From positions 62,001-126,000 of the forward strand of contig NZ_SJPR01000004.1 of assembly GCF_007859955.1 (NCBI RefSeq): 64,000 nt of DNA, in the 5' to 3' direction. This stretch comes from Botrimarina colliarenosi (GTDB lineage: Bacteria > Planctomycetota > Planctomycetia > Pirellulales > Lacipirellulaceae). Each line of letters starts with the position of its first letter. Position 1 is the stretch's first letter. Below, piece after piece: positions 2,545-53,383 of the stretch. Position numbers and translations under genes: made by a program. The notes beneath the pieces were generated by a model. The model searched no databases and was not told where the DNA came from. It was given only the letters and a program-made list of their open reading frames with translations.

Positions 2545-5500
2545 ATGTCGACGCGAAACGCCTTTCTCAGGACGCTGCTCGCAGGCTGCGTTGTGCTGCA
2601 ATCGCTGGCCCCAACGACAGCCTCGGCCGACCACGTCTTCGGACGGATCAAACGCCTCATCACGGAGGCGACCTATCACGGGTCCGAGCCGCCGAGTTGT
2701 GAGGTCGGCGCCATTGAAGAACTCGCGGAAAACATCGACTGGCTCGAGCACCACATCGACACGTATGGCTCCGTTGTCGCGAAGCAGCCGGACATCTGGG
2801 GAGAGGCGCGGCTGACCAAGCACCGCGACGAGTACGAGCGGATGATGTACCGCGAACTGAACCAGTTCAAGTTCACGACCAACGCAGCGATCTCACAAGG
2901 CGATAGCGCGTTCCTCGCTCAGGCGATCGCCCTATCTAACGCCGCCGCCGGTGCGACGAGCTCGGTTCCCGCCGACCCCGACGCCGGGGCCGTCGCCATT
3001 AGCGTGGCGAACGCTCAACTACGCGACGTTGACGACGAAGCAAGCACCTCCTTTGGCCGGTTCGGCATCACGGACGCGACACGGCCCGACGCACTAGGCA
3101 TCCGACTCGAGCCGACGCTCTTCCTCGACCAGATGTCGCGGTACTTGCAGCACCTCCACGAGTTGCGGCGGATCAACGAGGGAGACGACACGAGTGATTC
3201 GCCCGGGTATTCGCTGAATCTCGTGCGGCTCCCGGTCTCAATCCTTCCTGGCAAGCTGACGCGGGAGGGCTTCGGCGCCGAGGTCACCGTCACGGCGACA
3301 CCGGTGCTCACCGACGACCTGCTGCCTACGACCTTCCGGAACCTTGTCATTAACGACGTGGTGCATCAGCTGAGGTTGCCGGTCACGCGCCAAGCTGAGG
3401 CGATCGTGCGTGACGATACGAATAACCACTTAGAAGAATGTCCTTCCGTGACTACGTCTCGTGCGCCGGAGTTTGGGTCTCGTGCGCTGGAGTTTGGTGG
3501 TATTGGCCATCAGCAGGAGGAAGGGGTTACTCTAGTCAATGCCAATTTGGCCATACAGTCCCATGGCGCGGCTCAGAGCGCACAGCTGCATTTCTCACCG
3601 AGTCGTGCGGTTCGTGCGTTCGGCGAGCGTGTTGTTCACAAGATCGCATGTGAGTTCCTGTCAACCTACGACGGGCGTTATCTCCGCTGGAACGGATGGA
3701 CCAATTGCAAGGGAGACAAGTCGAAGGATCCAGAGCAACGAGTCGACTTGCTCGACGTCCAGGGATGGCTCGACAGCGAAACAGCGGCGGCGTACGAGCT
3801 ACTAAGGCAGCCGAAGCACCTCTGCTTATTCGCCGCCCTTGCCTCTCCGTCGTCGAGACTTGGGGCACAGATCCGCGGTGGGCACTTCGCCGACGCTCAG
3901 CCTCACGGGGGGCCGACCGTCGAAGACTATCGCACGTTTTTCTTTCAATGGCTGCACGCCCCGACGCAACAAGACCATCTGTGCAGCTTGATAGAAGCCA
4001 CACAGCAAGGCTGTGACATCTTTGGTGACCCAGCGTTGCTGAAGGAGGTTCACGACTCTTACAAGGTAGACAGCAATGGGAAACCAATCGACGAGCCTCA
4101 GCCAAACGATCGCGTCGAAGCGCTAGCGTGGGCGATCGTCGTTGAGTCAGCGTTGTTGAACGACCACTTGAACCAAGATGTCCGTAAGCTCGCCACGGCG
4201 AAGGAGGTCTACGGTCTCAGCACGTCTCGTGACCATTGGTTCTTCCTGCCCGACTCGGTCGTGGCCCCCGGTGAAGGGCTGGAGCCCTTGCAAGCCGAGT
4301 TCCATGCGGCCACGGAGGTGTTCCAGGAATACGTCAAGTCGCGGTGGCCCATCCATGTTTTTGCGGTTGATCCTCGCGAGCAGGACCAGAACGTTGCGGA
4401 CGTCTCCAACCGTAAGCGAGAGATGCAGTTCGCCCTGGCGCTCGGCTTCGCGACCGGCAAGATCGGCGTCAACTCGCTGACCCAATACTCCCGCGAGCTT
4501 GACACCCAGATCGAGACTATCGGGCTCAACCGGACCATTGTGGGCTTCGGCCACGGCGCGGACACCTTCGGCTGGCGGTTCTACCCACGCGTCCAGGCCC
4601 TCCATGTGCCGGGTACCCTCGGCGTCCTACGGGAAACGCTGATGGGGACCTCGCGCGACTACGACCTCAAGCATCGGCAGCTTGAGCCCGGTGCGCGGGA
4701 GTGCGTGGCGGTGGTGTTGATGCCGTCGTTCGTGCCGTACGCCGACTTCGACATCCGCACCAACTGGTTCAAGCTGACCAACCCGAAGAACGCCGCCCTC
4801 ACGATGAAGGACAGTGTCCATCTCAGCCGGGCGATCACCAAGATGCGTAACTCGAAGGCTCAGTGCTCTCGGTGCGCCCACCTCTACCGTGAGGGGGAAG
4901 TCGATCGGCTGATGAAACGGGTCCAGCAACTGGACCGTGAGCTGCCCCTCCAGACCCAACGGGCTCTGGTGCCGTACGAGAACACGCTCGGCGGGTTCGA
5001 GATGTTCAACACGGGCGTGACCGATCTCTCTCCGCAGCTGATCGGCTGGTACGGAGCGCCGGGCGTCAACATCAAGGCGAACCCGGCGTGCGGCTGTTAC
5101 CAAGGGTGTCAGCAGATCAACGCCACATGCACTGGCGCGGATGACTGCACGAAGCTTAACCAGCAATTGACGACGCTCAAGGGTAATTTGGAGGCGATGG
5201 CGCAGCTGCGGGAAAACGCCGCTCAGGGGGGCACGGCTGCTGCACCGCTTGCTGAGTGCGAAGGACCCGGCACGACGCTCTTCCTCGTCGGCGAGAACTT
5301 CAGCGTCCACGACACGAAGGTCATCGCCGGCGGGGTCTGCATCCCGCACGTACAGCTGATAAGTCGGGAGATCATGCAGGTGACGATCCCCGCCTGCGTC
5401 AACACCGTCACTCTTTGCGAGAACGGCAAGTCGAACGAGTACGTCTCCGTCTACATCGCGACGCCGTACGGCGTGACTAACCACCTGCACGTGCCGGTGA

Positions 5501-29806: not shown

Positions 29807-29820
29807 TTGAAAAACGTCAT

Positions 29821-29885
29821 CGAGCCACGCACGGAGTAAGTGGAGTTTTGCTGCGGACCGCTCCGCTTACTCCGTGCGCGGCTCG
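29821..29885. repeat. 25-bp inverted repeat with 15-base loop
   Basis: CGAGCCACGCACGGAGTAAG and TGGAG (29821-29845) pair with 29861-29885 with only two mismatches, both compatible with G-U pairing. It is in the divergent intergenic region and is unlike the neighbouring repeat in sequence. Confidence 0.75.
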
Positions 29886-30036
29886 AGCTGTACGCGTGGT
29901 GCAAATTAACTAGCCGGCTTATCCCACCGCTCTATCAGGTGAAAACCCGTAACCGCCCACCCCCGCCGCTTGCCCCGCGGCCCCGCGGTTGCTACGGTCA
30001 GGGAGACGGGATTTGTGGCCGCTTGCAGCCGTGCTG

Positions 30037-30105
30037 CTAAAGAGCCTTCGCTGGAGCGCTGGGGACGCCTTTCGTCGGGCATCGCCAGTGAGCCGCGTTC
30101 TTTAG
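30037..30105 (+). ncRNA. structured leader, candidate riboswitch aptamer
   Basis: Nested helices: CTAAAGA (30037-30043) with TCTTTAG (30099-30105); TCGCTGG (30048-30054) with CCAGTGA (30085-30091, one G-U); GACG (30064-30067) with CGTC (30073-30076). An intrinsic terminator follows. The segment GTCGGGC (30074-30080) can instead pair with the terminator's left arm (30123-30129). It precedes a sulfur amino-acid enzyme. I do not recognise a known riboswitch class. Confidence 0.5.
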
Positions 30106-30119
30106 ATTCGCACGCCTGC

Positions 30120-30157
30120 ACCGCCCGGTCCCCGATGGCCGATAGGCGGTTTTTTTT
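30120..30157 (+). terminator. intrinsic terminator in the leader of the PLP-enzyme gene
   Basis: ACCGCC (30120-30125) pairs with GGCGGT (30145-30150), with an inner CGGTC/GGCCG helix and a three-base bulge, followed by eight T (30150-30157). It lies about 65 bases before the start codon, on the coding strand, with no gene upstream in that direction, so it looks like an attenuator. Confidence 0.75.
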
Positions 30158-30220
30158 GTGCGCCCTTTGCATTGAAGGGCCCGCCGCCGCGGCAAGAACG
30201 CTTGCAGGACGATGCGAACC

Positions 30221-31459
30221 ATGCCTTCGCTCGACGCCGTGATGGAATCCGAAAAGAGCCCCGCCCCGACGTCCGGAAAGCCGGCAGCGGGATGCGGACA
30301 GGGGACGCTCGCTGTCCACGCCGGCGAGGCCCGCCAGAAGCCGGGCGACGCCGTCACTGACGCGATCTTCTGCGCCTCGACGTACACCTTTCCCGACACG
30401 CAGTCGGTGATTGACTACATCGAGAAAGAGCAGAGCCGCGAGGAGTATGGCCGCTACGGCAACCCGGGCGAAAAGGTCGTCGAGAAGAAACTGGCCGCCC
30501 TCGAGGGCGCCGAGTCGGCGGTGCTGTTCGCCAGCGGCATGGCGGCGCTGGTGGGCGTGCTGATGGCCAAGCTCGGCCAAGGGGACAACGTTGTCTTCAC
30601 CGACGAGTGCTACCACCGCAGCCGGCAGTTCTGTCGCGAGCACCTCTCCCGTTTCGGCGTCGAGACGATCACCGTCAAGACCGGCGACTACGCGGCGATC
30701 GAAGCGGCGATCACCCCCAAGACGCGGATGCTCGTCAGCGAGTCGCCGACCAACCCGCACCAGAGCTGCATCGACCTCGAGAAGTTCGCCGAGATCGGCC
30801 GCCGCAACGGGATCGAGACGCTGATCGACGCGACCTTGGCGACGCCCTACAATTTGCGGCCAATCGACGCTGGCGTCGATTACGTGCTGCACAGCTGCAC
30901 GAAGTACCTGGGGGGGCACAACGACCTGCTCGCCGGTTCGATCGCCGGGTCGGAGGACCAGCTGGCCCAGGTCCGCGAGCTACGCGGGATCATGGGCGCG
31001 ATCAACCAGCCCCACGCCATCTACCTGCTGCAGCGCGGCCTGAAGACGTTTGAGCTGCGGATGCAGCGGCACAACGAGAACGGCCTCGCCGTGGCTCGTT
31101 TCCTCGAAGCCCACCCGCGGGTCGAAAAGGTCTACTACCCGGGCCTCGAGTCGCACCGCGACCACGCCCACGCCAAGAAGTACATGCGCGGCTTCGGCGG
31201 CTTGGTGACGTTCCTCGTCAAGGACGCCGATTGGCGTGCCACGGCCGACGTGGTCGATCGCTCCAAGGTCTGCCGGATCGCCCCGAGCCTCGGAGGCGTC
31301 GAGTCGCTGATCGAGCAGCCCCTGGTGATGAGTTACTACCAGCGGACCCCCGAAGAGCGCAAGGCGTTCGGCATCCCCGACAACATGATCCGCTTGGCGT
31401 GCGGCATCGAGGACGCGGCCGACCTGATCGGAGACCTTGAGCAGGCCCTGCGGGCTTGA
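30221..31459 (+). CDS. Cys/Met metabolism PLP-dependent enzyme (trans-sulfuration family)
   Basis: About 412 residues of the cystathionine gamma-synthase/lyase family, which handles cystathionine, homocysteine or methionine. Seen: the N-terminal 'QGTLAVHAGEARQ', the 'YGRYGNPGEKVVEKKLAALE' segment, 'FASGMAALV', 'DATLATPYN' (Asp contacting the pyridine N), and the PLP Lys in 'HSCTKYLGGHNDLLAGS'. Substrate specificity cannot be settled. ATG 30221 has AGGA eleven bases upstream; ATG 30212 is only two bases from it and is less likely. A structured leader with a terminator lies upstream, suggesting control by premature termination. Confidence 0.9.
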   Translation: MPSLDAVMESEKSPAPTSGKPAAGCGQGTLAVHAGEARQKPGDAVTDAIFCASTYTFPDTQSVIDYIEKEQSREEYGRYGNPGEKVVEKKLAALEGAESAVLFASGMAALVGVLMAKLGQGDNVVFTDECYHRSRQFCREHLSRFGVETITVKTGDYAAIEAAITPKTRMLVSESPTNPHQSCIDLEKFAEIGRRNGIETLIDATLATPYNLRPIDAGVDYVLHSCTKYLGGHNDLLAGSIAGSEDQLAQVRELRGIMGAINQPHAIYLLQRGLKTFELRMQRHNENGLAVARFLEAHPRVEKVYYPGLESHRDHAHAKKYMRGFGGLVTFLVKDADWRATADVVDRSKVCRIAPSLGGVESLIEQPLVMSYYQRTPEERKAFGIPDNMIRLACGIEDAADLIGDLEQALRA

Positions 31460-53221: not shown

Positions 53222-53345
53222 GCCCAGGGCAACGCCCTGGGTACTCTGGACCGACCGCAAAAAGAGCCCTGAAGGGGCGCCGGAGATGGCGCCCCTTCAG
53301 GGCTTCGGTTTTTTTGCTACCAGCGTCCCAGGGCGGCGCCCTGGG
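53222..53345. repeat. two CCCAGGGC palindromes flanking the terminator
   Basis: CCCAGGGC-AAC-GCCCTGGG at 53223-53241 and CCCAGGGC-GGC-GCCCTGGG at 53327-53345. They bracket the bidirectional terminator symmetrically in the gap between two convergent genes. Confidence 0.75.
53265..53315. terminator. bidirectional rho-independent terminator
   Basis: AGCCCTGAAGGGGCGCC pairs exactly with GGCGCCCCTTCAGGGCT around a GGAGAT loop. A T-run (53309-53315) follows on the + strand and an A-run (53259-53263) precedes, giving a U-run on the - strand. It serves the PpiD-like gene and glgB. Confidence 0.92.
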
Positions 53346-53383
53346 CTATCGTCCTTCGGCCCTTCAGGCCGAGGCGGAAGGGA

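Follow-up and report, generated by a model that had tools for sequence, protein, structure and literature searches.

A candidate SAM-II-type riboswitch with a shortened P1 helix upstream of a probable cystathionine gamma-synthase gene in Pirellulales

SAM-II riboswitches (the metA motif, RF00521) were originally reported from alphaproteobacteria, a few other proteobacteria and Bacteroides; they act as transcription OFF switches upstream of methionine genes, and their start site lies just 5' of P1 (PMC1273637). A long-loop form (RF01726) was described from Bacteroidetes and marine sources (PMC2864571). SAM-V belongs to the same structural family and was named separately for differences in sequence and expression platform (PMC6061858, PMC7367207). 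From Planctomycetes and Proteobacteria, the survey of Weinberg et al. 2010 (PMC2864571) contains a candidate cis-element, Rhodopirellula-1, which has no Rfam entry. The literature consulted contained no report of SAM-II from Planctomycetes; for Rhodopirellula-1, the comparison extends to its line in the survey table.

Here, we analyzed a 64,000-nt stretch of Botrimarina colliarenosi DNA (NCBI RefSeq GCF_007859955.1, contig NZ_SJPR01000004.1, positions 62,001–126,000, forward strand; hereafter the window) in which an initial annotation had proposed a metabolite-sensing leader at 30037–30157. Our reading, in which we have high confidence, is that a miniature SAM-II-type aptamer makes the leader of the downstream gene an OFF switch, which senses SAM and acts by terminating transcription; SAM as the presumed ligand, the direction of switching and the kinetic order are suggested by sequence and by analogy with the described classes.

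The regulated gene and the conserved element in its leader

The initial annotation had assigned the downstream gene to sulfur amino acid metabolism, and the protein comparisons bear this out. The product matches PF01053, and its best solved relative is the cystathionine gamma-synthase 1i41/1qgn (352.7 bits, versus 285 for methionine gamma-lyase), which we take to be a plant enzyme. By sequence, the product is probably a cystathionine gamma-synthase; no NCBIfam equivalog scored above cutoff. The genome encodes one further enzyme of the Cys/Met PLP family, and orthologues of the regulated gene occur in 38 of the 44 genomes of the window's family.

In the upstream regions of this family, one near-invariant stretch, CTCGGGATTTGTGGCCGCTTGCAGCCGAAACTGCTAAAGAGCC, precedes the start codon. 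The window's copy lies at 30007–30046, so that the interval of the initial annotation starts within the final ten bases of the conserved element; the two overlap at 30037–30046 only, and the element begins 30 nt upstream of that range. All 28 motif-carrying leaders of the family have the aptamer upstream of the orthologous gene. The promoter, aptamer and gene are made up as follows (all on the forward strand):

29970–29975, forward: -35-like hexamer TTGCCC, by promoter pattern
29993–29998, forward: -10-like hexamer TACGGT after a 17-nt spacer, by promoter pattern
30007–30046, forward: putative 40-nt pseudoknot aptamer of SAM-II-like type, with almost no sequence variation across 174 non-redundant leaders and described by a covariance model
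30007–30009, forward: P1 5' strand CGG, partner CCG at 30029–30031, with covariation at the third pair
30010–30016, forward: L1, GATTTGT; GATTTG is present in 173/174 leaders and identical to the RF00521 consensus
30017–30019, forward: P2b 5' strand GGC, partner GCC at 30044–30046; GGC/GCC in 171/174
30020–30024, forward: internal-loop strand CGCTT (CGCTT in 151, CGATT in 18 and GTATT in 4 of 174)
30025–30028, forward: P2a 5' strand GCAG, partner CTGC at 30034–30037, from the sequence and alignment A1
30029–30031, forward: P1 3' strand CCG, from conservation and covariation in 174 leaders
30032–30033, forward: L3, variable in length (mostly 2–4 nt, range 1–33)
30034–30037, forward: P2a 3' strand CTGC, invariant in alignment A1
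30038–30043, forward: TAAAGA, equivalent of SAM-II U44–A47, aligned to GCUAAAG of RF00521
30044–30046, forward: P2b 3' strand GCC; GGC/GCC in 171/174 leaders
30212–31459, forward: Cys/Met metabolism PLP enzyme, 415 aa (PF01053, 419.5 bits)

Together, P1 and P2 give an H-type pseudoknot. P2 (GGC-CGCUU-GCAG / CUGC-UAAAGA-GCC) can be formed by 171 of the 174 non-redundant leaders and its sequence is invariant, too much so for covariation to appear in Pirellulales, and P2 is for this reason not independently proven. P1, which has the form NGG/CCN, is backed by covariation at its third pair (A-U 82, C-G 28, U-A 24, U-G 5). This position is paired in 141/174 leaders against 79 expected and unpaired in 33/174, and the excess is confined to this register, all neighbouring P1 registers being at expectation. 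On the gene tree, the third pair underwent about six two-sided changes between pairing states and about fifteen changes to non-pairing. A fourth P1 pair is at chance level (63/173 versus 61 expected). Covariation among Pirellulales homologues, which the initial annotation had named as a check, is thus found in P1, while the interval that it had marked is mostly not conserved.

By analogy with SAM-II and SAM-V, L1 would lie as a third strand in the P2 major groove, and the two U of the CGCUU strand would correspond to the sulfonium-facing region. Alignment to RF00521 suggests that the U44–A47 equivalents supply the adenine-pairing U and the triple-forming As. TAAA is invariant in alignment A1, but was also demanded by the search pattern; across the 174 leaders, UAAAG is followed by A, U or C. 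A peptide-coding leader was considered and rejected, as loop and spacer lengths vary regardless of three. In one member of the order, a 33-nt L3 insert (L084, 1509–1576) could form an extra hairpin recalling SAM-V P3.

A promoter pattern, TTGNNN-N16-18-TANNNT, stands at a fixed distance from the element in 144/174 leaders, compared with 5/174 shuffled controls, and the end of the -10 hexamer lies about 13 nt upstream of GATTT. The predicted transcription start is at about 30004–30006, roughly 6 nt upstream of the aptamer core, in line with the arrangement reported for SAM-II (PMC1273637).

Expression platform and proposed mechanism

Downstream of the aptamer, the terminator read by the initial annotation is present, with its stem and eight T, and the predicted folds add two pairings that involve the aptamer:

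30037–30045, forward: 5' arm of a predicted apo anti-aptamer hairpin, partner 30097–30105 (probabilities 0.71–1.0, truncated apo fold)
30110–30134, forward: predicted antiterminator partner of aptamer bases 30007–30034, overlapping the terminator 5' arm and loop
30120–30157, forward: intrinsic terminator, stem 30120–30125/30145–30150, T tract 30150–30157

The window's apo transcript is predicted to fold as one rod, in which 30007–30034 pairs with 30110–30134 and 30037–30045 with 30097–30105. In the truncated apo fold, pair probabilities reach 0.89–1.0 for 30024–30034/30110–30120 and 0.78–0.92 for 30017–30019/30123–30125. Two congeners (L004 and L005) have a variant of the 30037–30045 hairpin. 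That the leader is an attenuating riboswitch with mutually exclusive folds, as the initial annotation had held, is retained here; the alternative helix is a different one, formed by the terminator arm and the aptamer 5' half.

This complementarity extends beyond the window. Terminator 5' arms often begin with GCCGC, and the terminator loop contains CCGAG, CCAAG or CCAGT depending on the species; the flank of the aptamer 5' half reads CTCGG, CTTGG or ACTGG, matching the complement of the terminator loop in the same species. The duplex between the aptamer 5' half and its own terminator arm has an energy of -17.2 kcal/mol, compared with -10.3 kcal/mol for 231 terminators of other genes, and CCRC occurs within the first 9 nt of the arm in 84% of cases, versus 10% for terminators of other genes. 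When own pairs were compared with species-swapped pairs using only the 7 flanking bases, we obtained z = -7.5 (0 of 5000 permutations), a value that overstates the significance because related species are not independent. The linker was rejected as holder of the terminator arm: its mean pairing with the arm was 0.08, compared with about 0.52 when the aptamer 5' half and its flank are taken together.

In transcripts cut within the terminator loop, the terminator 5' arm was mostly free in 3/93 with the aptamer open versus 60/93 with the aptamer sequestered. At equilibrium, the mean terminator probability was 0.68 in the apo state and 0.90 with the aptamer blocked. In most leaders the terminator is therefore favored at equilibrium even without SAM, so that switching must be co-transcriptional; a decision made during transcription is usual for such switches.

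We propose that transcription would begin a few bases before the aptamer. With SAM bound, the nascent RNA would form the H-type pseudoknot, with P1 CGG/CCG, the P2 helix given above and GAUUU as third strand. The folded aptamer would retain its own 5' half, the terminator at 30120–30157 would form and the cystathionine-gamma-synthase-type gene would be off. With SAM scarce, the aptamer 5' half (30007–30034) would instead pair with 30110–30134 and the aptamer 3' strand (30037–30045) would fold onto the linker (30097–30105); this antiterminator pairing would pre-empt the terminator, and the gene would be transcribed.

The same aptamer could in principle exert translational or mixed control through the ribosome binding site, with an incidental terminator. 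Translational control is described for SAM-V and for a few SAM-II switches (PMC6061858), and a simple search recognized no terminator in 57 of 172 leaders. The 115 leaders in which it did recognize one nevertheless compare with 15 in shuffled leaders, a seven- to eightfold excess, the terminator arms are specifically complementary to the aptamer and the window's aptamer ends at 30046, 166 nt from the start codon; we regard translational control as improbable.

Relation to SAM-II and distribution in Pirellulales

At gathering threshold, an Rfam search of the whole window, a check that the initial annotation had named, gave no match at this leader. The sole match at E up to 10 was suhB on the leader's T tract (11.2 bits), which we attribute to chance, and the window's own aptamer had no match even at E 10. 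When the leader of another family member (L021) was cut to the aptamer, the best match was SAM_alpha, RF00521 (12.6 bits versus a gathering score of 36), with GAUUUG, GCUUGCA and GCUAAAG aligned letter for letter, followed by SAM-II long loop, RF01726 (11.2 bits versus 44); both scores are far below threshold, and by themselves these matches are only a lead. SAM-V was not listed among the matches of the family-member cmscan at E up to 10.

The connection was made through intermediate forms. A covariance model, R1, built from 18 sequences of the window's family only, finds four genomes of another planctomycete family (f86) that was absent from its training set. The same loci score 28.9–36.3 bits with RF00521, one above the gathering score of 36 and another nearly so; the two models thus meet on the same loci. 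The f86 forms (L085–L088) have the same core and a P1 of nearly 6 bp, with a mismatch at one P1 position in L087; an example reads ACGTGG GATTTG CGGC GTATT GCAG CCACGT AAAAAA CTGC TAAAAA GCC. They bridge the gap between long-P1 and short-P1 forms, and Rfam misses the Pirellulales form because its P1 has 3 bp rather than 6. Weak RF00521 matches also occur in unrelated genomes used as a control, which calls for caution; in a phylum-wide search, a match in G770 (L251, 35.5 bits) lacked the SAM-II core and was rejected as chance. The initial annotation had recognized no known class, whereas the core segments and the f86 intermediates place the element with SAM-II and SAM-V.

R1 matches occur in 206 of 397 Pirellulales genomes and 96 of 145 genera, with exactly one copy per genome. 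The same gene follows within 900 bases at 218 of 233 motif loci, and nearly all of the remaining 15 are contig run-offs or the f86 form. In the window's own genome, the genome-wide motif search found no second copy and the RF00521 search nothing real. A pattern scan of public genomes gave at least 120 matches; among the matches listed, the titles were almost all of planctomycetes, with the genera Rhodopirellula, Rubripirellula, Neorhodopirellula, Aporhodopirellula, Bythopirellula and Lacipirellula. When the leader itself served as query in a DNA search, one congener only was reached, since conservation is lacking in its middle part.

The Pirellulales form shares with RF00521 the H-type order P1-L1-P2-P1'-L3-P2', internal loops of 5 and 6 nt, and GAUUUG, CUUGCA and GCUAAAG identical to the Rfam consensus, and thereby the pocket segments GAUUU, UUGCA and GCUAAA. 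As in SAM-II, it has a promoter just upstream, an intrinsic terminator downstream and a methionine gene as target (PMC1273637). It differs in its host phylum, Planctomycetota, in a P1 of 3 bp instead of about 6, an L3 of mostly 2–4 nt, a GGC/GCC P2b and a total of 40 nt, and it scores far below the RF00521 gathering threshold. SAM-II long loop has the same core, with a longer loop and P1. With SAM-V the element shares the structural family and the pocket; SAM-V, however, has a translational platform and an extra P3, and no platform masking a Shine-Dalgarno sequence beside P2 is seen in the window, where a terminator lies between the aptamer and the distant start codon. By fold, core and target, the element would thus work like SAM-II; its Rfam score and the length of its P1 keep it from being a recognized member. 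To our knowledge, its 3-bp P1 is shorter than that of any known SAM-II.

Whether these differences set the element apart, in the way of SAM-V, as a minimal subclass of its own within the SAM-II family, we judge close to evenly balanced, leaning slightly against. Such a subclass would be defined by a 40-nt aptamer with a 3-bp P1, among the smallest SAM aptamers known, by a 5' half that serves as the antiterminator strand, so that pocket and switch helix would use the same bases, and by an order-wide one-gene regulon.

That the ligand is SAM, one of the three candidates named by the initial annotation, is in keeping with the SAM-II core. The same fold might bind SAH or another adenosyl-sulfur compound through a change in the pocket, and small differences do lie next to it (the CGCUU internal loop and the variable base after UAAAG). 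We consider this quite unlikely, as GAUUUG, CUUGCA and GCUAAAG, with the SAM-contacting nucleotides of SAM-II and SAM-V, are unchanged and the two U whose O4 atoms point towards the sulfonium and exclude SAH (PMC6061858) are both retained. A protein-binding DNA operator or promoter element, rather than an RNA, might likewise be strongly conserved in sequence and directly follow a promoter; it would not account for a conserved stretch that starts past the predicted transcription start, a loop of varying length, covariation of P1, terminator arms that co-vary with the motif or the match to a validated RNA class via an intermediate form, and we give it very little credence.

The preferred reading, a SAM-II-type OFF switch, would extend this type of sensing to a planctomycete order in which it is invisible to the standard database, and show how far the pseudoknot can be trimmed, with living intermediates linking long and short P1. 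It also yields a concrete candidate for how methionine is regulated in Pirellulales, among them the cultured Rhodopirellula, Rubripirellula, Bythopirellula and Lacipirellula, with a strand-sharing expression platform simple enough for a direct in vitro test.

In the f86 loci (L085, L086, L087 and L088, aptamer at about 1497–1552), the long-P1 form is followed by a terminator and by an ORF of about 170 aa, which has no solid Pfam match (a weak TPR match in one), is not a known methionine gene and is possibly a new SAM-regulated gene family. On a contig labelled Desulfatibacillum (L243), a SAM-II-like core with a 6-bp P1 lies at about 5188 on the reverse strand before an unrecognized ORF; the same contig has a separate SAM-I riboswitch (RF00162, 69.6 bits) at 3199–3298 on the reverse strand.

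Other helices of the leader and its surroundings

The nested helices listed by the initial annotation can all be read from the sequence: CTAAAGA 30037–30043 with TCTTTAG 30099–30105, TCGCTGG 30048–30054 with CCAGTGA 30085–30091 and GACG 30064–30067 with CGTC 30073–30076. At -59.3 kcal/mol, the predicted fold of the 136-nt leader is more stable than shuffled sequences, which average -51.4 kcal/mol (z = -2.14; 5 of 200 shuffles as good); the stability is above chance, not strikingly so. The CTAAAGA hairpin is strongly formed in the predicted folds. Three of the four genomes belonging to the window's genus have it, and it is strongly predicted in only 17/99 leaders; we therefore rejected it as a general partner and class it as a local anti-aptamer helix, present in this genus and in some others. 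GTCGGGC (30074–30080) and GCCCGGT (30123–30129), the proposed switch helix, are complementary through five Watson-Crick and two G-U pairs, but this pairing is not strongly formed in the predicted folds. A new class contained within 30037–30157 and switched by this helix, although both of its helices exist in the sequence, is already contradicted by the comparative data and scarcely credible, as the 30047–30119 interior is variable even within the window's family, the sensor lies at 30007–30046 and the truncated fold pairs the terminator arm with the aptamer rather than with 30074–30080.

Between a secretin-like gene and the leader, a long imperfect inverted repeat (CGAGCCACGCACGGAGTAAG...CTTACTCCGTGCGCGGCTCG) at 29813–29886 is possibly a terminator or a repeat element. 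Elsewhere in the window, 53327–53371 on the forward strand matches the Acido-Lenti-1 RNA (RF01687) with 37.3 bits, compared with a gathering score of 37.
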